Source: a virus
Strand: one strand, 5' to 3'
IMG/VR virus record: IMGVR_UViG_3300014838_000082
Coordinates: 1 to 23,334 of that record
DNA length: 23,334 nt
Below are positions 5,885-23,228 of the stretch, one piece after another. A program made the translations under genes and the position numbers. The notes under the pieces are model-generated. The model ran no database searches. It saw only the letters and a program-made list of their open reading frames with translations, and had not been told where the DNA came from. How positions within the stretch are numbered: the first letter of the stretch is position 1; every line of letters begins with the position of its first letter.

Positions 5885-5978
5885 GGCTGGCAGTGTACAT
5901 CAAAAGTGGGAGACGTTGTGGAAAATAATCGTTGCTATCCTGTGGAAAGAGGGGTAGTGTGGAAATCGAGGCAAAACG
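5885..5978. promoter_or_regulatory. divergent control region with three TGTGGAAA repeats
   Basis: This gap separates the leftward lysis/packaging operon from the rightward early operon. It holds three direct copies of TGTGGAAA at 5917-5924, 5941-5948 and 5958-5965. The first, read on the minus strand with one more base, is TTTTCCACA, which fits the relaxed DnaA-box consensus. The others differ at the outer base. A weak rightward promoter is possible: TTGCTA at 5932-5937 and TAGTGT at 5955-5960 with 17 bases between. GAGG at 5968-5971 is the ribosome binding site for the gene at 5979. The repeats overlap the promoter candidate, so operator use is as likely as DnaA binding. Confidence 0.5.
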
Positions 5979-6185
5979 ATGAGTAGCATGCAAATGTTCG
6001 AAGCCAACCTGGGCACCAGAAACGAAGTTGAGGCAGCGGCAATGGTCCTCGACCACGCAAGAAACCACATCTCCTCCAGCCCGGACGCAACCGCCGGTGA
6101 AATCTGTGCCAGCATTGTGCTGGGCAACCTTTCCCTGCTCGTTTTCCCGGAGCAGGAAACCAAAGTCCGCAGAGGTGGCCTGTGA
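5979..6185 (+). CDS. hypothetical protein, 68 aa, first early gene
   Basis: This is an unrecognised small acidic-to-neutral protein, largely helical between residues 14 and 55, with no cysteine pattern or membrane segment. ATG with GAGG seven bases upstream is a good start. It is the first gene after the divergent control region and ends in a GTGA overlap with the next gene, so it is expected to be made early. Phage genes in this place are often small regulators or host take-over proteins, but nothing in the sequence points to one. Confidence 0.6.
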   Translation: MSSMQMFEANLGTRNEVEAAAMVLDHARNHISSSPDATAGEICASIVLGNLSLLVFPEQETKVRRGGL

Positions 6186-6391
6186 AAATCGTCGCAATTA
6201 TAGCCCTTTTGATCCTCGGATACGCCCTTCTCGCTTGGGCGCTTCGCCGCATCCAATTAGCAAAACGCGCCGCCGACGTGGCCCACCAGCAGGAGCTGGA
6301 ACAGGCCGCCGTCCAGGCGAAGTACCTCACCCCGCGCATGACCGAAACCGAGATCGCCGACATGCACGCCTCGCGCTGGCTGGGAGACTGA
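6182..6391 (+). CDS. small membrane-anchored protein, 69 aa
   Basis: Starts with GTG overlapping the previous stop (GTGA). Residues 3-21 form one strong hydrophobic helix (KIVAIIALLILGYALLAWAL), followed by a basic residue cluster and a charged, Gln/Glu-rich helix to the end. It is expected to sit in the inner membrane with the C-terminus in the cytoplasm. Small early membrane proteins of phages often take part in superinfection exclusion or modify host membrane functions. That is only a possibility here. Confidence 0.65.
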   Translation: MKIVAIIALLILGYALLAWALRRIQLAKRAADVAHQQELEQAAVQAKYLTPRMTETEIADMHASRWLGD

Positions 6392-6393
6392 CC

Positions 6394-6651
6394 ATGGGCC
6401 TCGACCCGGAATTTGCCAGCGAATCGACCGCCCCGACTACCGGACGCTGGTACAAGAACTTCCGCATGGCGTGGATTGCAGAAAGCCTACGTGTCTATGG
6501 CTTTATCAACCGTCGGCATATTGAGCGGAAGTTCGGCCTTTCTACGCCGCAAGCCTCTATTGATCTTCAAGAGTTTCAACGCCTTAACCCCGATGAGATC
6601 GAATACAAACTCTCGGACAAGGTCTATGTAAGCAGGAAGTACCCGACCTAA
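6394..6651 (+). CDS. stand-alone winged-helix protein like the BrxR/CapW N-terminal domain
   Basis: An 85-residue protein. Residues 18-80 contain a predicted winged helix: WIAESLRVYGFINRRHIERK, then FGLSTPQASIDLQEFQRL, then a strand pair ending in YKLSDKVYV. This order, with the PQASIDL recognition helix and the final Y..S.K.YV strand, is what I know from the DNA-binding domain of BrxR/CapW-type repressors of defence islands, but the WYL and dimerisation domains of those proteins are absent. The start is the ATG at 6394, three bases after the upstream stop. It may repress phage or host promoters. The family link is from remembered motif likeness, not from a search. Confidence 0.62.
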   Translation: MGLDPEFASESTAPTTGRWYKNFRMAWIAESLRVYGFINRRHIERKFGLSTPQASIDLQEFQRLNPDEIEYKLSDKVYVSRKYPT

Positions 6652-6666
6652 AAATTAGGAGCACGA

Positions 6667-7344
6667 ATGACACCCCTCAGAGCCCCCGTCAACGCAAGTT
6701 CTGCCAACATCGACCCGGTTCCTTCCGGATCTCACATCGCCGTCTGCGACATCATCGCGTTTCTTGGAGTCCAGCCAGGCACCGGCCTCTACCCCAAACC
6801 GAAGCCAACGATCTACCTGCGGTTTCAACTGCCAAACGAGCGCGTGGAGTTCGAGAAAGATGGAAAAAAACAGAGCGGCCCGCGCATGATCGGGAACTGT
6901 TACACGTTCTCGATGCACGAAAAGGCCAACCTGCGGCACCTGTTGGAGTCCTGGCGCGGCCAGCAGTTCACGGATGAGCAGGCCGCCGATTTTGACATCT
7001 CGACCGCCCTGGGTGGACCTTGCATGCTGATGGTCATGCAGTCCCAAAAAGGGCAAAAAATCTATTCGAACATTTCCGGGATCGGCCCGTTACCAAAGGG
7101 GATCAACCCGAAAACCATCATCGTCGAAGGCACTCCGGTACTCTACGGCCCGGAAAACACGTCGACCTACAAGCTTCTGCCAAACTGGCTCCAGGAGAAG
7201 ATCGACCACCAGATCCTCAAGGAACCCGAGCCCAAAGAGGGCGAGCCCGCACCCCCGCCCCGCGGCGACACATGGGACGGCAGCGAACCTCGCAACGATG
7301 GTTTCGACTCATCTCTCATCACTGACGACGATATCCCGTTCTAA
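6667..7344 (+). CDS. single-stranded DNA-binding-like replication protein
   Basis: A 225-residue protein with a beta-rich core (about residues 20-165) and a flexible Pro/Glu-rich region ending in LITDDDIPF. The acidic DDDIPF tip is the hallmark of SSB proteins, which use it to call other replication and repair proteins. The core has conserved-looking features of phage replication-associated ssDNA-binding proteins (IYLRFQLPNERV and MIGNCYTFSMHEKANLRHLL), rather than the E. coli SSB pattern. AGGAG lies just upstream of the ATG. It comes before HTH and replication-initiation genes, which fits a role in phage DNA synthesis or recombination. Confidence 0.7.
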   Translation: MTPLRAPVNASSANIDPVPSGSHIAVCDIIAFLGVQPGTGLYPKPKPTIYLRFQLPNERVEFEKDGKKQSGPRMIGNCYTFSMHEKANLRHLLESWRGQQFTDEQAADFDISTALGGPCMLMVMQSQKGQKIYSNISGIGPLPKGINPKTIIVEGTPVLYGPENTSTYKLLPNWLQEKIDHQILKEPEPKEGEPAPPPRGDTWDGSEPRNDGFDSSLITDDDIPF

Positions 7345-7366: not shown

Positions 7367-7729
7367 ATGATCAGCAAAGACAAGGCAGCGCAATTGTTCG
7401 CCAAGGGATTGAGTACCAATGAAATCGGCCGCCGGCTGGGGATCAGCGCCTACAAAGCGAAACAACTGAAGCCGCAGATAGACCAGGCAAAGCCCGAACC
7501 CGCCGCCCCAGGCACGGCCGAGGACCGAGTGTGGCCGATCGAGCTTGAGGTGCCCTTCGGAGACCTCGACAAGATGATCGAGACGCTGGGCCCCGAGGAC
7601 CTGCACGACGCCGTCATGCAAATGGAGGATCCGGACAAAGCCCAGATCCTGACCTTTGCGCTGCAGAACCGCCTCCGAAAGCTGATCGAAACGCCGGCCC
7701 AGCCGGAGCCCAAACCGGAGACCCCATGA
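7367..7729 (+). CDS. HTH-domain protein, 120 aa
   Basis: Residues 3-35 form a helix-turn-helix of the simple resolvase-like type (KAAQLFAKGLSTNEIGRRLG then SAYKAKQLKPQI), followed by a Pro/Ala linker, an acidic middle part and a helical region (residues 75-105). I chose the ATG at 7367 with GAGAGG upstream over a longer in-frame start inside the SSB-like gene. The protein may be a regulator or a DNA-binding replication accessory. Its stop overlaps the receiver-like gene by ATGA, so the two are made together. Confidence 0.65.
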   Translation: MISKDKAAQLFAKGLSTNEIGRRLGISAYKAKQLKPQIDQAKPEPAAPGTAEDRVWPIELEVPFGDLDKMIETLGPEDLHDAVMQMEDPDKAQILTFALQNRLRKLIETPAQPEPKPETP

Positions 7730-8148
7730 GACCCAAAAAAGTGCTGCTGCTCGTCGACCAGGATGAGAACGCGCTCTCCGTCCTAAAGTTTCTTTTTGAA
7801 ACGAACGGATACCGAGTGCTCGCAGCCACCGGCGGCAAAGAGGCGATCGCCATGTTTGCGGCGGCCCCGGTGGTCGACATGGTCCTGGCCGCGGCCACGA
7901 TGACCCCCATGAACGGCGAGCGCCTGGTGGCGCGCCTGAAGCGAATGCGATCTTACGTTCCGATGACGATCATGGGGGAGTCCGGAGACAAGCCCAGCGA
8001 TGAGTTCGCCGGCGATCGCTGGGTTTCCCGGTCGACCGCGCCCGCGGTGCTTCTCGACCTGGCCAAGGTGATGTGCGCGCGCAAGCGAGGGCCGCGCAAG
8101 GGAGCCTGGCGACAGATAGTGGCCGAGATTTCCTTGGTTTCCACATAA
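7726..8148 (+). CDS. degenerate response-regulator receiver domain
   Basis: A 140-residue protein whose first 116 residues follow the receiver (REC) fold: KVLLLVDQDENALSVLKFLF, then GYRVLAATGGKEAIAMF, then DMVLAAATMTPMNGERLVAR, then VPMTIMGESGD. In a standard receiver the last part of the third strand carries the phospho-accepting Asp. Here the matching residue is Ala 56, the switch Thr/Ser is Gly 84, and the conserved Lys is missing. It therefore cannot be phosphorylated in the usual way and is a pseudo-receiver. The C-terminus is short and basic, with no output domain. Coupled by ATGA to the HTH gene. It may work as a protein-protein interaction module in replication or host signalling. Confidence 0.7.
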   Translation: MRPKKVLLLVDQDENALSVLKFLFETNGYRVLAATGGKEAIAMFAAAPVVDMVLAAATMTPMNGERLVARLKRMRSYVPMTIMGESGDKPSDEFAGDRWVSRSTAPAVLLDLAKVMCARKRGPRKGAWRQIVAEISLVST

Positions 8149-8210: not shown

Positions 8211-9137
8211 ATGCCCTTCGTAAAACTCGACACCCGCATCCTGGATTCGACACTTTGGATAGACCGCGACCTCCGCGAGATTTTCATCACCGCGCTTCTC
8301 ATGGCTGAACCGATGGAATTTTCCGACCCGCAGCGCCAGATCCTGATCGATAGCCTCGATACAACGGATTTCACCGCGCCGCCCGGCTGGTACGGCTTTG
8401 TTCCTGCGGCTGGAATAGGGGTCATCAACCGAGCTGGCGTGGAGAAAGAAGCCGGGCTCGCGGCGTTGCGAAAACTCGGTGAGCCAGAAGCCGATAGCCG
8501 ATCCAAGGACTTTGGGGGGCGCCGCATGATCCGGATAGACGGCGGGTTTCTTGTTCTTAACTACATGAAACATCGGGATAAAGACTACACCGCGGCTGAC
8601 CGGCAACGGAGACTCCGCGAGCGCAAAAAGCGTGGCCCTGGTAACGCTGGTGCAACGCCCGGAAACGCTCCGAACGTTACGCGTGATGTCGCATCTGTCA
8701 CGCGTAACACACCCGTGACGTCACGCATAGCAGAGGGCAGAGTACAGAGAGCAGATGCAGAGGCAGAGGCAGAGGGGGAACGCCCCCCTTCCCCCCAAGC
8801 CAAACCAAAGCCTCCCGAAGAGCCCGACGACTTCAACCAGGACCCCGAAGCCAACATCCCCGAGGGGATGGCGCTTTTGCAGTATGCGGGCTTTGTGCTT
8901 CAACAGGCCAGCATTCCGGCCGGCTACGCACTCAAGGTCAAGACCGGCGACACGATCGAGCTGCTGGCCAAAGATGAGGGATGCTCGCTGGCTGTGGCCA
9001 CCAGGCGCCTGCTGGACCGCATGCGAAACGCTGGCCCACAAAAGTGGAATTTCTGGTTGCAGGATGGGGGCTGGAAGCAAGATGCTGGCATGGACGCGAC
9101 CGAAAGAGCTTTTCTCTATGGAGTTCCCGATGACTGA
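8211..9137 (+). CDS. phage replication initiation/replisome organiser-like protein
   Basis: A 308-residue protein. The N-terminal 120 residues (FVKLDTRILDSTLWIDRDLR onward, with GWYGFVPAAGIGVINRAGV and a MIRIDGGFLVLNYMKHRDKD strand) look like the winged-helix N-terminal domain of phage replisome organisers. A disordered Arg-rich, Pro-rich and Glu/Ala-repeat linker (residues 125-210) follows, and then a helical C-terminal part with WNFWLQDGGWKQDAG. This layout of DNA-binding domain, loose linker and partner-binding domain is usual for such initiators. The next gene is a helicase-loader candidate. In-gene repeats could be the origin. Confidence 0.7.
   Translation: MPFVKLDTRILDSTLWIDRDLREIFITALLMAEPMEFSDPQRQILIDSLDTTDFTAPPGWYGFVPAAGIGVINRAGVEKEAGLAALRKLGEPEADSRSKDFGGRRMIRIDGGFLVLNYMKHRDKDYTAADRQRRLRERKKRGPGNAGATPGNAPNVTRDVASVTRNTPVTSRIAEGRVQRADAEAEAEGERPPSPQAKPKPPEEPDDFNQDPEANIPEGMALLQYAGFVLQQASIPAGYALKVKTGDTIELLAKDEGCSLAVATRRLLDRMRNAGPQKWNFWLQDGGWKQDAGMDATERAFLYGVPDD
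8676..8709 (+). repeat. inverted repeat and iteron-like element inside the replication gene
   Basis: GTTACGCGTGA at 8676-8686 and TCACGCGTAAC at 8698-8708 are a perfect 11-base inverted repeat with an 11-base spacer. The right arm lies in TGTCACGCGTAACA (8696-8709), which is an exact copy of the 14 bases at 8187-8200 before the gene. Similar but incomplete copies (TCACGCATA near 8720) follow. Phage initiators often bind sites within their own gene, so an origin is a reasonable guess. A repeated Val-Thr-Arg codon string could also explain part of it. Confidence 0.45.
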
Positions 9138-9544: not shown

Positions 9545-9697
9545 ATGGCCGTAACCCAAAAAGGTGCCCTGAAAATCGCGGCTGCACAGGAGGCTGTTTC
9601 ACATGAGCAAGGGAGTAAAAGACGTAATTCCCATGAATTAGACGTTGTCCCGCTTTGCCTTTCATGTCATAAACGGCAGCATTGGGAGAAAATCTGA
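9545..9697 (+). pseudogene. internally deleted HNH endonuclease remnant, 50 aa
   Basis: The first about 15 residues (MAVTQKGALKIAAAQ) look like the start of a longer phage zinc/HNH-type protein. The last about 22 residues (SHELDVVPLCLSCHKRQHWE) look like the end of an HNH nuclease, with the second CxxCH and a final His. The parts normally between, with the first CxxC, the HH core and Asn, are missing. The frame is intact and the gene is still followed by the DUF5131 start in TGATG. I read this as an HNH gene that lost its middle by an in-frame deletion, so it can hardly be an active nuclease. Confidence 0.55.
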
Positions 9698-10656
9698 TGG
9701 CAATTAAAACGGAGATTTCCTGGACGGACTCGACCTGGTCGCCGATCAGGGTGCGCGTCAAGCCGGACGCCGGCGCGATCGCCAAAGCCAGCGGATACGC
9801 CTCGCTGATAGAGATCGGCACCAGGATGGCCGGCCGGGTCGGCCAGCACTGCGAGCACGTGTCGCCCGGCTGCGAGAACTGCTACGCCGGCGCCAACAAC
9901 CACCGCTGCCTGCCAGAGAATGGCACTGGGCTCCCTTACGACCGGCGATCGCGGGATCTGGTCGAGGCCTTCGTGGATGAGCGCGTGCTGCTCGAGCCGC
10001 TGAAGTGGAAGCCACTCTGGGACTGCAGAACCGATCGGCACTGCAACAAGATCGAGTTCCAACGTCCGCGCCGCATCTTCGTCGAGAACCAGTCGGACCT
10101 CTTCGGCGAGTGGGTCACAGACGACCAGATCGACCAGGTCTTCGCGGTGATGGCGCTCTGCCCACAACACACGTTTCAGGTGCTCACGAAGCGCCCCGAG
10201 CGAATGCTGCGCTATTTCGAGAAGGATTATCCTCTCCCGAACGTGTGGCAGGGCGTGAGCGTGGAAAACCAGAAAGCCGCCGATGTGCGAATTCCACTTC
10301 TGCTCCAGACGCCGGCGGCCGTGCGGTTCATCTCGGCGGAGCCGCTGTTGGGGCCGGTGAACCTCGAAGAGCTGCCGAGCGCCAGTGGCATCGGGCGACA
10401 CCTTGACGCCTTGAGCAATGCCGGCGTCGATAAAGGCGCCCTGATTCCAAACAAACTCGACTGGTGCATCATTGGCGGCGAAAGCGGGCCCGGCGCGCGG
10501 CCGATGAATCCAGATTGGGCGCGCAGCCTGCGCGATCAATGCCAGGCCGCCAAGGTGGCCTTCTTCATGAAACAAATGGGCTCGGCTTACGGCCCAAAGA
10601 AGGGGCACGAGCCACCAGCCGACCTGGACATAAAGCAGTTTCCGGAGGCGCGATGA
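9697..10656 (+). CDS. DUF5131 (Gp37/Gp68) family protein
   Basis: A 319-residue protein of the family usually named phage Gp37/Gp68. Typical features are ISWTDSTWSP at the N-terminus, HCEHVSPGCENCYA at 51-64 with three cysteines (C52, C59, C62), IFVENQSDLFGEWV, WQGVSVENQ, RFISAEPLLGP, CIIGGESGPGARPM and FFMKQMG toward the end. The cysteine triplet and TIM-barrel-like order of motifs recall radical-SAM enzymes, and an iron-sulphur centre is plausible, but the activity of the family is not established to my knowledge. The start is the ATG at 9697 overlapping the HNH remnant stop. The stop overlaps the RusA start by ATGA. Confidence 0.88.
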   Translation: MAIKTEISWTDSTWSPIRVRVKPDAGAIAKASGYASLIEIGTRMAGRVGQHCEHVSPGCENCYAGANNHRCLPENGTGLPYDRRSRDLVEAFVDERVLLEPLKWKPLWDCRTDRHCNKIEFQRPRRIFVENQSDLFGEWVTDDQIDQVFAVMALCPQHTFQVLTKRPERMLRYFEKDYPLPNVWQGVSVENQKAADVRIPLLLQTPAAVRFISAEPLLGPVNLEELPSASGIGRHLDALSNAGVDKGALIPNKLDWCIIGGESGPGARPMNPDWARSLRDQCQAAKVAFFMKQMGSAYGPKKGHEPPADLDIKQFPEAR

Positions 10657-16857: not shown

Positions 16858-19800
16858 TTAAGCTGCCCCCGGTACGCCGGTGGGCACGTAGATCGATGGT
16901 GTCACATCGCCCAGCGACTGAAGGGCGGCCCCAAACGTGTTGAAGGTGCATACCTTGAAGTAGAGCACCTGGCCGATATAGGCCGGCGGCATCGTCATCT
17001 TCAGTATCCCGGCCTGGCTGGGCCCGACCACCGCAAACCGCGAGCCTGCGGGGTGGTCGACGCCGACGCCGCTCGAGCTGGGCGCGTTGAAGATGGAGCG
17101 CCGCAGGAAGTTCCCAGAGCCCGTCGCCTCGAGCGTGTACGCGCTCGGGCCGGTGAGGATGAGGGCGCCGTAGGTCATGAGTTCGTAACCGAAGCCGCCG
17201 CCGCCGCCGGCCGCGGCGACTGCCGTGCCGTTCACCTTGAGTGAATCCAGGAGCCCGATCGCAACGCCGTCCACCTCGAGGGCCGGCGGATCTCCACCCG
17301 CAACGCCGGCGCCGTTGACTTCGAGCACCAGCGCGCCGCCCTCAACGTAGCAGGGCACCTCGAGGTTGTTTTCAACCGCGGTCGAATTTGCCTGGAGGTC
17401 GCCGTTCGACTCGGCCAGATTCACCTCGAGGTTATTCGTCGTGTCGGGATCGGTGGCGGCCGGCCAGTCGGCCACCAGGCTGCCCGTAACCGCGGATCCG
17501 ACCACAACGTTTGAATTGCCGTCCGCGCCGCCGGGCGCCGGGCTGTAGCTCGAGCCGCCGTCCGTCGAAATGAATACCTGCGCGCCGCCGAAGTTCGGAT
17601 CGTCGCTCGAGACCACAACCCAAAGCTGGTCGCCAGAGTTCCCGGGAAAGAGCCCAGGCGTGGGCTCAAAGATGATCGGCGTGTTGGCATCGCCGGCGCT
17701 CCGCTGGGTGTTTACCGGATTCGGCGCCGGCGTCGACGCTGCGAGCAGGGTGGGCGCGCACATCCCATAAACGAAGGGCTCGGCCGTGCCGGCGAAGCTG
17801 CCGTCGTCCTGCTCGTTGTAGCTCGTGATCCGGACCGGGACGCCGGTGATGCCCTGGAGCTCATCCGTCAAGGTCACCAGGTCCATCGGCGAAAGTAGCG
17901 ACCAGCGCGCCGTGGTCGTGAAACTCCACACGTCGCCGCCGTACTGGTTCCGGCGAACCTGGATGCCGAGGACGGTGCGCGCGATCGAGGGGTCCTGGAT
18001 CGCGTTGTTTGTGACCGGGTCGGCCTTCCGAACCCCATAGAGCCCGAGCGAGGCCGGATCTGGGGTCTGCACCGTGACCTGGGCATAGTTCGCGTTGCGG
18101 TCGAAGCACTGCATCTGGAGCACGTTCGGCAGATCGATCCGGACCGCGGTATCGAGCGACGGGCAGTCGGACATGATGAAATCGCCATTGTCGGCGTCGA
18201 GATCCGCGACGGGCCCCGCGCCCGTGGGCGCCCGATAGAACGCTCCGTTGCCGGCGGCCGAGGCCTCGGAGTAGGGATAGAGATAGAATTTCGCGCCCAG
18301 GAACACGGGGGCGGCGTTGGCGGCGCTGCAGAGCGTCTTGATCCAATCCGACGCCGAGGACTGCGAATTCATCGTGAGGGAGCCCCAGAGCCCGTTAGCG
18401 CGGCACTGCGCGCGCACCAGGTCAAAGGACGGCACGTCGACGAAGTCGCCCAGGGGCCGAGGGTACGGCACGGGCTCGGTGGCCTTGATGGCGATCAGGG
18501 CGATCGAGTCCGGCGCGCCGCCGGCGCCCGCAGCCGAAAACGCACCAGGCGAGTGAATGACCCGTTCCTGCATCTGAAACGTGCCCGGAGACCGGCCGGC
18601 GAAGTTTTCCGGGGTCACCGCGCGCCACAGGGGCTGGTCCGCCACCGCCGTGGCACCGCCAGCAGCGTAGAGCGAGATAGCCAGCAGGTAGGCAGGCAAA
18701 CCCTCGGCGACGCTGCTAGAGGCCTGTGCAGGCCCGCTGGACGACGTCGCCACAGCATCGACCGCCTCGCCGCCCAGGTACCCGGGGGGCGTCGCGTAAC
18801 TTATCCGCAAAAACACCGTGCACCCGAAGCTGCCGGTATAGTTCGTGAGCTGGATGGTCGCCTCAAACTGGAAGCTACAAACGAAGGCGTTAAAGTCCGC
18901 CTCGGTCGTGCCGATGCTGGCGCCGATGAATTCACTGCTGCCGTTGGGAAAGCTGCCGACGCCGAGCCCGGAGACGTTGAAGGCAAGCGGATTTCCCGGG
19001 CTTCCGCTGTAGTCGAGGTCATAGCCGACCACGGGCTCAATGGCCGTGACGGTCACGCCGGCAGGCAGACCAGGCCACGCCGCGCCCCCGTACGTCAAAA
19101 CGGCGTTAACGCCCTCGTAGATGTTGAACGGGGGATAAACGCCCGTGACGGCCATGGCACCGGCCCCATCGGTGACCGTTGCAGTGGCGGTATTGACCTC
19201 TGAAGGGCCACAGGTGGCGGATCCGCTGCCGGGAACCTTAACCATCACCGAATTGCCGATCGAGTTCCCGACGCCGCCGATCTCGAGGATGGCCATGCCC
19301 CAGGACCCCGAGGCGCCGGCGACCGTAACCGTGTTCGGGCCGCCGGCGGCATAGGCATACCAGACCTGGTAGCCCAGCCCCAAGCCGTAGACGGGCGTCC
19401 AGGTCTCGCCGTTCGCCGAGCTGATGGTGAGCACCCCCGCACCCGTGGCCGTGGCCACCAGGACGTTACCCTGGGCGTTGGGCATATCGAACATCATCGG
19501 GGGCAGCGCCGCGGTGGCGCTCGCGTCTACCTTCTTCTGGATCGTGCCCGGCAGGTCGTAGCTCGAGAGTCCGCGCTCCATCTGGGTCGCGGCCGGCTGG
19601 GGCTGGACCGAGGTGTCGGCCGCGATCGCCGCCTGGGCCATGCCGGACTTGTAGATGTCCTCGATCATGTCCACAAAGTCGGCGTCGCCCGTCGGGTACA
19701 CCCCCCATTTGAAAGCAACCTCCGGAGTAAGCTGCGGGATTGCACCCGAGGAGCCGAGATCGAGTTCTGAGCTTTGCAAGCCGGCGAAGTGTGGATAAAT

Positions 19801-20529
19801 GATCTGCTGGGCCGCGTTGAAGCCGTTCGCGTACTCGTCGCCAGATCCAAGCTGGGGCTCGAAGGCCATGGCCAGCCGCGCGATCGGCGACTGGTTCGAG
19901 GTCGCCGCGGTGAGCTGCGCATAGTAGACATTCACCGTGCCGGCCGGGAAAGACTCGGCGTCGAGGTGAACGGTCGCGCCCATGCCCTGCTGCCAGCGAT
20001 AACAGAACGGCCAGGTCCGGTAGCTCATTGGATCGCTGGGATCCGGCCCGACCTCCAGTTCGTTCCAGAGCGGGATCTCCCAGGAGCCGGAGAGCGTCTG
20101 CGGACCCTGGCCGCCGTAGTCGTCGACCGAGAAACTGTAGCTCGCGACCAGCGTCACGGCGATCACAAAATAGAAGTTGGAGTCGGTGACCGTGAGCGAC
20201 TGCCGGCCGCCGGCCTGAGAGAACGACTGGTGCGTAAAGGCCAGCGGGGTGTTTGACCCGTTATTCATGACCTGGAGCACGCCGCGGATCGGATTGTGCC
20301 CCAGGAGAAAATCGATGCACTCGCAGTAGTTCGTGATCCCTTTTTTGCTCTGTTTAAACTTCTTCGTTCCGCCGCCGCCCTGGCGCAAATTGGCCGCCCA
20401 GATGGCGAGCAGGTTCGACTGAGTCTGCCCGTAGCCCACCGGGATCGTCGCCCCGTAGGCCGAGGCCTGAAGAAGCGACCCCATCGCCGTGGGCCGCTGC
20501 GATGCCTGAGATTTGAAGGTGGCCGTCAT
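16858..20529 (-). CDS. giant tail-tip protein (gpJ-like, PF13550-type) with adhesin insert
   Basis: A 1223-residue central tail-tip protein. The N-terminal 310 residues (ASAYGATIPVGYGQTQSNLL, FLLGHNPIRGVLQV, IIYPHFAG, DMIEDIYKSGM) and the part from about 698 (SFDLVRAQCRANGLWGSLTM, SDWIKTLCSAANAAPVFLGA, YGVRKADPV, VRRNQYGG) read as a phage tail hub of the gpJ / GTA gp15 kind. Residues 320-697 are a large insertion with two adhesin-like parts (GGPNTVTV at 396-403 and SIALIAIKA near 675). The C-terminus ends in an FN3-like segment (YIGQVLYFKVCTFNTFGAAL). ATGA overlap with the NlpC gene. It forms the tip that contacts the host and may pass DNA or hydrolase into the cell. Confidence 0.82.
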   Translation of the reverse strand: MTATFKSQASQRPTAMGSLLQASAYGATIPVGYGQTQSNLLAIWAANLRQGGGGTKKFKQSKKGITNYCECIDFLLGHNPIRGVLQVMNNGSNTPLAFTHQSFSQAGGRQSLTVTDSNFYFVIAVTLVASYSFSVDDYGGQGPQTLSGSWEIPLWNELEVGPDPSDPMSYRTWPFCYRWQQGMGATVHLDAESFPAGTVNVYYAQLTAATSNQSPIARLAMAFEPQLGSGDEYANGFNAAQQIIYPHFAGLQSSELDLGSSGAIPQLTPEVAFKWGVYPTGDADFVDMIEDIYKSGMAQAAIAADTSVQPQPAATQMERGLSSYDLPGTIQKKVDASATAALPPMMFDMPNAQGNVLVATATGAGVLTISSANGETWTPVYGLGLGYQVWYAYAAGGPNTVTVAGASGSWGMAILEIGGVGNSIGNSVMVKVPGSGSATCGPSEVNTATATVTDGAGAMAVTGVYPPFNIYEGVNAVLTYGGAAWPGLPAGVTVTAIEPVVGYDLDYSGSPGNPLAFNVSGLGVGSFPNGSSEFIGASIGTTEADFNAFVCSFQFEATIQLTNYTGSFGCTVFLRISYATPPGYLGGEAVDAVATSSSGPAQASSSVAEGLPAYLLAISLYAAGGATAVADQPLWRAVTPENFAGRSPGTFQMQERVIHSPGAFSAAGAGGAPDSIALIAIKATEPVPYPRPLGDFVDVPSFDLVRAQCRANGLWGSLTMNSQSSASDWIKTLCSAANAAPVFLGAKFYLYPYSEASAAGNGAFYRAPTGAGPVADLDADNGDFIMSDCPSLDTAVRIDLPNVLQMQCFDRNANYAQVTVQTPDPASLGLYGVRKADPVTNNAIQDPSIARTVLGIQVRRNQYGGDVWSFTTTARWSLLSPMDLVTLTDELQGITGVPVRITSYNEQDDGSFAGTAEPFVYGMCAPTLLAASTPAPNPVNTQRSAGDANTPIIFEPTPGLFPGNSGDQLWVVVSSDDPNFGGAQVFISTDGGSSYSPAPGGADGNSNVVVGSAVTGSLVADWPAATDPDTTNNLEVNLAESNGDLQANSTAVENNLEVPCYVEGGALVLEVNGAGVAGGDPPALEVDGVAIGLLDSLKVNGTAVAAAGGGGGFGYELMTYGALILTGPSAYTLEATGSGNFLRRSIFNAPSSSGVGVDHPAGSRFAVVGPSQAGILKMTMPPAYIGQVLYFKVCTFNTFGAALQSLGDVTPSIYVPTGVPGAA

Positions 20530-20999
20530 CGTCCAGGCTCCATCTTAGCGAAAGGATCGAATACTTCCATCGGCCGGAAGGCGGTCAGCTTATGCGTGGT
20601 GAGGGTGATTTCATGCACCCCGTCCGCGCCGGCGTGGATGCCATGTGGCCATATGGTAACGATCGCCCCGTGGTTAAAGACCTTGCTCCCTACCACCCGA
20701 AACAGCACCAGGTCGCCCGGCTGGGCCTGAGAGTCCGCCCGGCAAAGAGTGAGCGCGGCATCGAACCCGAAGCGCACCAGGCCCCGAAGATAGCGCTCGT
20801 TGGCATCGTGCAAAAACCAGTCGTGATGGTAGCCCTCAAGGTTTTTCCAGAGGTCGGCCGGCGCGGCGCCGATCTCGATCAGGTAGCAGCCGAGGAGAGT
20901 GGCGCAGTCGACGCCGGCGCCCTTCAGCCGGCCGCCCAGGACGTAAGGCGTGCTCAGGAACGATCGCGCGATTTCAATGGCCTCAGTCCGGGTCTTCAT
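20526..20999 (-). CDS. NlpC/P60 tail-tip peptidase
   Basis: A 157-residue cysteine peptidase of the NlpC/P60 fold, as in lambda K and GTA gp14. Catalytic Cys 32 is in GVDCATLLG, His 110 in VFNHGAIV, and the strand after the His (IHAGADGVHE) carries a possible third residue. Upstream is ALSTPYVLGGRLKGAG, typical of the fold. It would cut peptide cross-links locally while the tail penetrates the wall. It is placed between the DUF2163-side small gene and the giant tip gene, the usual order. Start ATG at 20999; the stop overlaps the tip gene start (ATGA). Confidence 0.88.
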   Translation of the reverse strand: MKTRTEAIEIARSFLSTPYVLGGRLKGAGVDCATLLGCYLIEIGAAPADLWKNLEGYHHDWFLHDANERYLRGLVRFGFDAALTLCRADSQAQPGDLVLFRVVGSKVFNHGAIVTIWPHGIHAGADGVHEITLTTHKLTAFRPMEVFDPFAKMEPGR

Positions 21000-21132
21000 G
21001 CTTTTTCTCCGGTTTCCGGTTGCGCTCTTCCGGGTCGATCATCTCGGTGCCCATGATCGCCCCAAATGGAATCCAGATCCGCTCCCCCTTGATTTCGACC
21101 CAACGCCCTTCGACTGTCTGACCTTCGTGCAT
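20983..21132 (-). CDS. 49-aa tail-module protein
   Basis: A short ORF that begins three bases after the DUF2163 stop and overlaps the NlpC start by 17 bases. It encodes VEGRWVEIKGERIWIPFGAI with a charged C-terminus (PEERNRKPEKKHEDPD). A small beta-hairpin protein is likely. Small genes of this kind between gp13- and gp14-type genes occur in other phages, but I know no role. Coupling on both sides is the main support. Confidence 0.6.
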   Translation of the reverse strand: MHEGQTVEGRWVEIKGERIWIPFGAIMGTEMIDPEERNRKPEKKHEDPD

Positions 21133-21135
21133 TGG

Positions 21136-22071
21136 TTACACCGCCTGGGTGGGATTGGGCACATACGGGAAACCATAGTAGCCCTCGTCGCCCACGTTGA
21201 TGGGGGCGGTTGTCGAGACATAGAACGTATCGACGCCGGGCGTCGGCGGCCAGGGCAGAGGCGAGAAGATCACGAACTCGGAGTGATGGTTGCCGTCGCC
21301 GTCCGTCCATTCGCCGTTCTGACCAATCGCCGACCAGGCGCCGGCGAGCGTCGCTCCGGCCCCGGAGAGAAAGACCATGTATCCGCCCGAGAATTCGTTT
21401 CCCGAGTAGATCTTGCCGCCGACCGGGGAAAGACAGTCCGCGACAATGTACGTCTGGGTCGACGGCCGAACGCAACTGAAAACCGGGATCGATGCGTCGC
21501 CCGTGGGCAGCGTCACCGCGGCAGTCGAGGCGAGCGTGTTGGTGACCTCCACAACGGTCGAGGGCACCTTTTGCTTCAGGACATCGGCGTAGCTTTTCGT
21601 GTTGAAAATCAGCTTGTTCCGGGCAACCTTGCAGTTCTGGATGCGACCGCCAAACCACTCCGCGCACCCCAGGGTATCGGCGTCTCCGGGCGTGGGCATA
21701 AAGCACCGAAGAATGAGCACTGGCCAGTTATCGTAGGCGTGCTGAGCGGCCAACTGGTAGGGAGATGCGGTTCCAGTGTTTGAGGTTTGAGAGGCCTGCG
21801 CACTCGCACCAGGCGTCCAGGAGATCGCGAGAGACTGCGCGTCAAGGCCAACCGTCGCCTCAACGCCGGGCCGCGAAACCACGGCTGGCTGGAAGAGGCC
21901 ATAGGGCCTGTAGAGCACCGGAGCCTCATGGTTGGTCAGATAGAGCGCGTTCGGGTTCTCGGGCGGTCCTATGATGATCAGATCCCGCAGGATCGGCTTG
22001 TCGGTCGAATTTAGATAGGCCTGGGTTGCGACCGTCGTGTCCGAGCCGTTGCCGCCGATCGTGCGCCTCAC
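21136..22071 (-). CDS. DUF2163-like tail-hub protein (GTA gp13-like)
   Basis: A 311-residue protein in the gp13 place. Its middle has LGCAEWFGGRIQNCKVARNK followed by LIFNTKSYADVLKQKVPSTV, as in the DUF2163 family of tail hub proteins, where F-x-G-x-(V/I) then a set of hydrophobic residues leads to the repeated-C-P region. Start is GTG (22071) in a GTGA overlap with the DUF2460 stop. Length and neighbourhood match. The C-terminus (EWTDGDGNHHSEFVIFSPLP) is rich in Gly/Asp. It probably joins the distal tail to the tip hub. Confidence 0.72.
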   Translation of the reverse strand: MRRTIGGNGSDTTVATQAYLNSTDKPILRDLIIIGPPENPNALYLTNHEAPVLYRPYGLFQPAVVSRPGVEATVGLDAQSLAISWTPGASAQASQTSNTGTASPYQLAAQHAYDNWPVLILRCFMPTPGDADTLGCAEWFGGRIQNCKVARNKLIFNTKSYADVLKQKVPSTVVEVTNTLASTAAVTLPTGDASIPVFSCVRPSTQTYIVADCLSPVGGKIYSGNEFSGGYMVFLSGAGATLAGAWSAIGQNGEWTDGDGNHHSEFVIFSPLPWPPTPGVDTFYVSTTAPINVGDEGYYGFPYVPNPTQAV

Positions 22072-23228
22072 AGGGGCACCGGCCTTGCGGTCCGAAGGAC
22101 CAGCGTCCCGCTCCCGTTCTGCGATTCGCCGCCACCGATTGTCCAGTAGCCGCCGCCCTGCCCCGCTGGTGGCTGCCCAGCCGAGGAGCCGATGCCGGCA
22201 AACTTCTCGAAGTCCTGCGAGTCGGAATCAAACCTAACCCGAAAATAGAAGTGGAACTGCGCAGTGACGGGCGCCGCGGGGCCGGCGTAATAGCCCTGAT
22301 CTGCCCAGACCAGCGTGCCTGGTCCGTCGGCCGCGGCGCCGCCGCCGTCATTGAACGCAGGATCCGACGCCCCCGAGGTTCCTGCGCTTCCACCAGCGCT
22401 GCCCTGGTCGGTCCAAACGGCCATCGTTCCGCCGGTGCCGTCGTTCGTGGTACCGCCGGCATCGTTGAAGGTTGGGATCGTCGCCCCCAGCGTGCCGGCC
22501 GTCGTGATCTTTTGCACATGGCCGGCCGGGTCGACGATCTCGTAGCCGAGAGCTACGACCGCCAGCGCAGACCAGGCGCGCGCCGTGGCCTTCTGAATGT
22601 GGCCAGCCGAATCGAGGATCCGGGCGTTGACGGCATAGGCATGCGTGGCCGCCCAGGCCGCCGCACCCGGCCCCCATTTGAGCACCATGCCCAGCCAGGA
22701 GTGCCCGGGGATGGCCAGGCCCGGCCCCTCGAGCGTGTACTGATTGGCGCCCCCGCCGGCGGTGGCCAGCGTCCCATCAAGATACACCGATATGGCGCCG
22801 TTGAGGTCGGTGATGTCCTCGTAGCTCACGCCGTCGAGCGTGCGCTGCACCGGCGAGTAGTAAGTGCCGGCGCCGTCAGAGACCAGGGCGAGCTGGGCAA
22901 GAGGCGTGTTGGGAGCGAGCAGGGCGGTGAGAGCCGGGCCGACGTAATTGTCGTCCGGATCGGTGTAGAGGAAGGCCGCCGCGCTGCCGTACTGATCGTT
23001 GAAGAAACCCATCAGCGTCCGGAGTTCGCTCACCGTGGTGAAGCTGCCCCAAAAAAAGTCGTGCAGGAAATCAAAAACGAGAGTCCACCGCCAGACCGGA
23101 TTGGTGTATTGGGGAAGGCGTACCTCGTAGGCGTTCGAGCCCTCCTCATTCAGCGTTTTGAAGCTGGGGGCCTTGATCGACGTAAACGTGAGCCCGGGCA
23201 GGCTCGGAAATACAGGCAATGAAGGCAT
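22068..23228 (-). CDS. DUF2460-like distal tail protein with inserted repeat modules (GTA gp12-like)
   Basis: A 386-residue protein. The N-terminal 165 residues (FPSLPGLTFTSIKAPSFKTL, YEVRLPQYTNPVWRWTLVFD, LRTLMGFFNDQYGSAAAFLY) and the end (FHFYFRVRFDSDSQDFEKFA) are the DUF2460 family, whose members are the first of the GTA-like tip cluster. Residues 187-315 are an insertion with two modules of the pattern GTxGAxxPxFNDxGGxxxDGxGTxxW and a repeated GHIQK/GHVQK strand. These look like carbohydrate- or surface-binding repeats. The gene is the first of the leftward tail-tip operon. Confidence 0.78.
   Translation of the reverse strand: MPSLPVFPSLPGLTFTSIKAPSFKTLNEEGSNAYEVRLPQYTNPVWRWTLVFDFLHDFFWGSFTTVSELRTLMGFFNDQYGSAAAFLYTDPDDNYVGPALTALLAPNTPLAQLALVSDGAGTYYSPVQRTLDGVSYEDITDLNGAISVYLDGTLATAGGGANQYTLEGPGLAIPGHSWLGMVLKWGPGAAAWAATHAYAVNARILDSAGHIQKATARAWSALAVVALGYEIVDPAGHVQKITTAGTLGATIPTFNDAGGTTNDGTGGTMAVWTDQGSAGGSAGTSGASDPAFNDGGGAAADGPGTLVWADQGYYAGPAAPVTAQFHFYFRVRFDSDSQDFEKFAGIGSSAGQPPAGQGGGYWTIGGGESQNGSGTLVLRTARPVPL

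Follow-up and report, generated by a model that had tools for sequence, protein, structure and literature searches.

Why would a phage carry only the DNA-binding end of a bacterial defence repressor? The question is raised by a gene for an 85-residue protein, here called P0001, on the virus record IMGVR_UViG_3300014838_000082. All 23,334 bases of the record were analysed (the window), and start and stop coordinates follow its numbering. A first-pass annotation had described the product as a phage-encoded winged helix of the BrxR/CapW type, with no WYL or dimerisation domain, that might hold off host defence systems. CapW is a WYL repressor associated with the cyclic oligonucleotide-based anti-phage signalling system (CBASS), with structures from Stenotrophomonas maltophilia (7TB6), Pseudomonas aeruginosa (7TB5) and Rhizobium leguminosarum (9C5G). 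Homology of P0001 to the CapW/BrxR winged helix and its stand-alone architecture are secure. The function that we rate highest, at a probability of about 45%, is to bind CapW operators at host defence promoters without being inducible.

Identity of the protein and its predicted DNA-binding face

The gene and its parts lie at these positions:
6394..6651, + strand: stand-alone CapW-type winged-helix gene (P0001), 85 amino acids, with ATG at 6394 and TAA at 6649-6651
6382..6386, + strand: ribosome-binding site GGGAG, 7 bases ahead of the ATG, read from the sequence
6445..6633, + strand: homology to the N-terminal winged helix of CapW/BrxR (residues 18-80), from phmmer and profile alignments
6544..6585, + strand: recognition helix, residues 51-64, TPQASIDLQEFQRL, from the AlphaFold model
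6598..6633, + strand: beta wing, residues 69-80 (strands 69-72 and 77-80), from the AlphaFold model

A phmmer search against 177,635 PDB sequences returned CapW chains only, with E-values of 1.5e-8 (9c5g), 3.2e-7 (7tb5) and 1.2e-6 (7tb6). The profile built from 21 stand-alone relatives matches CapW at 7.3e-18 to 7e-15 and also reaches both solved BrxR proteins (1.2e-6 and 1.9e-4). Chance resemblance is ruled out by these values. Searches of Pfam, PHROGs, NCBIfam and PADLOC yielded no usable match to P0001; the blank Pfam, NCBIfam and PADLOC results are uninformative because full-length CapW proteins, searched with the same Pfam copy, match only the WYL model and not the winged helix.

The AlphaFold model of the monomer (predicted local distance difference test score of 87 overall and above 90 over residues ~20-80) has three helices, at residues 16-35, 40-47 and 51-64, the last being the recognition helix, followed by a wing of strands 69-72 and 77-80. 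Foldseek ranks CapW/BrxR at the top, with the next, unrelated folds at E 0.01 or worse, and other winged-helix families are thus ruled out as the best match. VIA-align gives Z 12.3 for BrxR 7qfz, 11.2 for CapW 7tb5 and 10.4 for CapW 7tb6, in a comparison where generic winged helices also score Z 8-9 and lower-ranked families stay in play. Both structural searches therefore favour CapW/BrxR over the MarR or replication-initiator match that the first-pass annotation had named as the alternative, and open reading frame, PDB matches, profile and predicted fold agree on its family assignment. The reading frame stops 5 residues past the wing, which bears out the reported absence of a WYL or C-terminal WCX/dimerisation domain.

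The DNA-contact residues can be compared with published mutants. The substitution R17A abolishes DNA binding in BrxR_Efer (PMC9122601), as do R32A and S42A/Q45A/S47A in S. maltophilia (Sm) CapW (PMC9122588). By alignment, BrxR_Efer R17 corresponds to R24 of P0001, and Sm CapW R32, S42, Q45 and S47 correspond to R40, S50, Q53 and S55; all five experimentally validated positions are kept, as the first-pass annotation's claim of a retained recognition helix would have it. Within a clade of 26 members (described below), R24, R40 and S50 are present in every member, Q53 in 25 and S55 in 19. In the BrxR-like bacterial group, A and T predominate at the positions of Q53 and S55.

P0001 thus shares with CapW an N-terminal winged helix, a recognition helix of the form S-x-P-Q-A/T-S and the R/S/Q/S DNA-contact residues. 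With BrxR (Acinetobacter 7T8K/7T8L; Escherichia fergusonii 7QFZ) it shares the domain fold (Z 10-12) and R24, the equivalent of R17 in BrxR_Efer, but it is more distant in sequence, and the BrxR-like helices and their derived operator differ. On sequence grounds P0001 is nearer to CapW than to BrxR, and its predicted CapW-type specificity is well supported by the residues and the helix type. Unlike CapW, P0001 lacks the WYL domain, the WCX domain and the linker helix, and therefore both the sensor for single-stranded DNA (ssDNA) and the known dimer interface. The phage clade also has conserved residues of its own that are absent from CapW (W27, E30, Y/F35, F37, H42, R45 and K46), and these could form a new contact surface. 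We do not class P0001 as a CapW but as a stand-alone protein derived from the CapW winged helix, because it is without WYL and WCX and no recognised defence genes occur in the phage run that holds it.

A stand-alone phage family

When viral contigs were scanned for the domain, about 30 distinct viral records were found to carry it. All are stand-alone, with at most about 53 residues beyond the domain, and none full-length was found. In bacterial profile searches, by contrast, nearly all matches were full-length repressors of about 280-345 amino acids. Matches occurred in 20 of 385 genomes of Alphaproteobacteria, 52 of 369 from the class of Acidovorax sp. GW101-3H11 and 77 of 394 of Rhodobacteraceae, the last being the family of a Roseobacter metagenome-assembled genome (MAG). 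The conserved pattern, searched in bacterial genomes, gave three stand-alone and five full-length proteins. In the tree, P0001 falls in a clade (support 99/95) of 26 rows, all stand-alone and nearly all viral, in keeping with the phage origin that the first-pass annotation ascribed to this gene. Most deeper forks are unresolved because the tree was built on only 68 columns.

Three pairs of copies at 80-94% identity have low ratios of non-synonymous to synonymous changes (pN/pS 0.07-0.15, lowest for the Phaeobacter-type copies at 0.07), indicating purifying selection. The very close pair L016/L018 has a value of 0.40, from few changes. A recent truncation or decaying remnant is ruled out by the 26-member stand-alone clade together with the ratios of the three pairs.

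A second stand-alone clade (99/98) comprises Stenotrophomonas phage Sonora and three contigs. Sonora gp088 (QYW02189.1), annotated as a hypothetical protein, is a 75-amino acid stand-alone CapW-type winged helix, and the host of the phage, S. maltophilia, is also the source of the characterised Sm CapW. The literature that we searched contained no description of phage-encoded stand-alone CapW-type copies.

Several relatives sit in prophages or phage-plasmids. A Roseobacter prophage (L020, 1327-1554 and 2334-2546; also seen as L035) carries a pair of stand-alone CapW-type winged helices separated by 1 kb; the recognition helix of the second, CSSQSAGHDL, is divergent. The Phaeobacter phage-plasmids pP24_g and pP18_f (L166, L167) carry repAB, genes for phage structure and, immediately upstream of the block of small genes that includes the stand-alone winged helix, quorum-sensing genes of the luxR/luxI type.

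Residence in prophages, together with DNA-contact residues that are the same as those of CapW, would fit a competitor that displaces host CapW and thereby induces defence; a prophage could in this way arm its host against other phages. We consider this very improbable. Sonora is a phage isolate, and no integration module was noticed in the annotation examined; its gene sits among small takeover-type genes, and a protein occupying the operator would be expected to block the promoter just as CapW does.

Operators and recognition-helix variants

Operators were derived by a palindromic expectation-maximisation (EM) motif search of the 160 bp that precede each of a non-redundant set of full-length CapW genes (37 regions; an earlier set had 22). 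A simple palindrome finder applied to CapW promoters was uninformative. The predicted type-1 CapW operator is a palindrome of 23-25 bp, gATGCGtATAgTaAcTATaCGCATc, with a short form close to ATGCGTATAGTnACTATACGCAT; its half-site centres on CGTATA within the ~25-bp palindrome. The log-likelihood is 260-270 against 35-47 for shuffled sequences (at 23 bp, 259.5 against 35-44 in the 37 regions), and bacterial CapW promoters mostly score 15-27 bits for it. Repressors of this type adjoin CBASS cyclase, phospholipase and HmaA genes. The type-1 helix is also that of P0001 and most other phages.

Full-length repressors of a second type, with the helix S[NT]xQAAxDF, have the predicted operator TATACGTATAnTTnTTATATGGACA (log-likelihood 146 against ~40; 12 regions). 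The shuffled EM controls had fewer seeds than the real runs, which slightly favours the null downwards; this is immaterial given the size of the gap (about 40 against 150-270). Among these computationally predicted operators, the two variants track the recognition helix. BrxR-like full-length repressors (L065-L091), many with the helix SDAAATKDL, share another palindrome, GTGnTAATAnnTATTAnCAC.

The type-2 helix occurs in the phage copies of Phaeobacter phage-plasmids (L005, L006) and of the Roseobacter MAG (L035, the same as viral contig L020). Over the ten residues ISNAQAALDF / ISTAQAANDF, these copies from Rhodobacteraceae phages are identical to full-length repressors, most of which come from the Rhodobacteraceae sample, whereas the rest of the domain is only 22-30% identical. 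When the helix is left out, the type-2 phage copies group apart from those full-length repressors. To judge from these sequences, the phage helix looks as if it has adapted to the host operator.

At two Rhodobacteraceae loci (L169, 6733-11836; L170, 2413-7498), type-2 WYL repressors, the kind for which the operator variant was derived, are divergent from a conserved pair of genes for proteins of ~380 and ~1025 amino acids. The L169 pair is SbcD-like and SbcC-like (with weak LmuB matches), and a GajA homologue is nearby. Possibly, these loci are a repressed SbcCD-like defence operon.

The same operators were sought in the window, in both complete Phaeobacter phage-plasmids, in 50 kb of Sonora and in the flanks of other relatives. 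No convincing CapW-type operator was found in these phage sequences; the best scores were 14.7 bits or less, most of them at the simulated level. Beside the P0001 gene itself, too, the scan gave no convincing CapW-type palindromic operator.

Gene neighbourhood and proposed function

P0001 is the third gene in a tightly packed run on the + strand (5979-6185, 6182-6391, 6394-6651, 6667-7344), the neighbours being:
5979..6185 and 6182..6391, + strand: two small overlapping genes upstream in the same run, with products of 68 amino acids and of 69 amino acids with an N-terminal hydrophobic segment; no convincing family match
6667..7344, + strand: next gene downstream, 225 amino acids, 15 bases past the P0001 stop; no family match

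Family scans found the downstream product to be unrelated and gave no WYL domain there. The run starts at 5979, opposite the structural genes on the - strand (terminase 1105-2553; tail genes 16858-23228). The "early operon" of the first-pass annotation is upheld as to the packed run; gene order suggests that it may be early. Also encoded in this run (7726-8148) is a receiver domain of the response-regulator kind (PF00072, 3.8e-9) that stands alone, with neither kinase nor output domain, and a DUF5131 family protein (PF07505, 1.5e-72; phrog_2045, function not known) lies at 9682-10656.

The layout of two small genes followed by P0001 resembles that of anti-CRISPR (acr) and anti-CRISPR-associated (aca) genes, and P0001 could be an Aca-like or Cro-like autorepressor that regulates the phage's own run. 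This is the main rival to our preferred interpretation, and control of the phage's early genes was also the alternative given in the first-pass annotation; we regard it as possible, if somewhat doubtful. Like Aca proteins and the AcrIIA1 N-terminal domain, P0001 is a small single-domain helix-turn-helix protein of mobile elements. Aca proteins average 60-65 amino acids and autoregulate, and for solo copies of such proteins in bacteria an action in trans on promoters of the opposing side has been proposed (PMC9410906). However, Aca proteins belong to HTH_3 or other unrelated helix-turn-helix families and target phage acr promoters, whereas the targets that we propose for P0001 are promoters of host defence; family scans of the run recognised no acr homologue.

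A regulator of the phage's own genes would use a site other than the CapW operator. Three direct copies of TGTGGAAA, at 5917, 5941 and 5958 (spacing 24 and 17), lie within 49 bp in the divergent region 5917-5965, just ahead of the run, while shuffled windows average 0.25 such clusters. They may be an operator or an origin element, a site for any regulator of the run. Apart from these direct repeats, no clear inverted repeat was seen in 5885-5978. On the other strand, the first copy reads TTTTCCACA, near a DnaA box. The cluster is, however, not common to other phage loci and is unlike the CapW half-site. Upstream of 24 phage copies there is no strong common palindrome (log-likelihood 42-50 against 29-38 shuffled, compared with 160-270 for bacterial CapW), and neighbouring genes are not conserved between phages.

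The neighbours also include a RusA resolvase gene and a gene (8211-9137) with a weak replication-initiation match (E=0.041), and in five relatives (L002, L003, L009, L020 and L033) a serine recombinase gene is found no more than about 2 kb from the winged helix. P0001 could accordingly be a DNA-binding accessory of replication, recombination or packaging that reuses the fold. This seems unlikely: the recombinase linkage is limited to 5 of the 26 phage loci compared, no neighbour gene is constant across them, and residue conservation follows the sequence-specific CapW contacts.

We return to the uninducible operator binder. CapW sites overlap the -10 element (PMC9122588), and repression by CapW/BrxR lasts until the WYL domain binds ssDNA (PMC13373217). 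In full-length CapW, the WYL/WCX part senses ssDNA made in infection and the operator is released. P0001, without this sensor, would bind CapW-type operators at host defence promoters and keep the promoter closed once the host's own repressor has let go. Given the same DNA-binding face and no sensor, binding, if it occurs, would therefore mean repression without inducibility. We infer that two copies would bind and fill both half-sites, perhaps via W27, E30, Y/F35, F37, H42 and K46, that P0001 would repress rather than displace, and that the phage would benefit.

Several points weigh against this interpretation. CapW and BrxR bind as dimers via domains that are missing in P0001, and a monomeric winged helix might bind weakly. 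The best site in the window, at 7048 (14.7 bits), beats all 30 simulations and falls in the P0001 run, as own-gene regulation would have it; its score is, however, below that of typical true operators, and its position is within a coding gene. Sites in L093, L015, L020 and L166 are slightly above their own simulations, the top matches of L093 and L166 being weak. The Rhodobacteraceae phage helix match is essentially one evolutionary event or lineage, and two other phages (L093, L094) have type-2-like helices too. DNA binding, repression and an anti-defence effect are proposals for every stand-alone copy.

The defence-repression mimicry put forward in the first-pass annotation is strengthened by the CapW-type helix, by operators predicted ahead of repressors that neighbour CBASS and Hma genes, by the Rhodobacteraceae helix match and by the lack of a convincing CapW operator of the phages' own in the sequences scanned; it stands as a proposal, and an anti-defence role is plausible. 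The derived operator and the two helix-tracking variants make it directly testable with a short DNA probe. More tentatively for the family as a whole, phages of Proteobacteria may have a dedicated family of stand-alone CapW-operator binders, in which the helix follows the host repressor and the proteins, having no ssDNA sensor, act as uninducible super-repressors that silence islands such as CBASS and Hma during infection. Defence systems of many kinds are released by CapW/BrxR repressors once ssDNA signals an infection. If our interpretation is true, an operator binder without the sensor would be a general block on that release, directed at many unrelated systems rather than at one enzyme, and these phages would counter defence transcriptionally, by imitating the repressor that the host itself uses.
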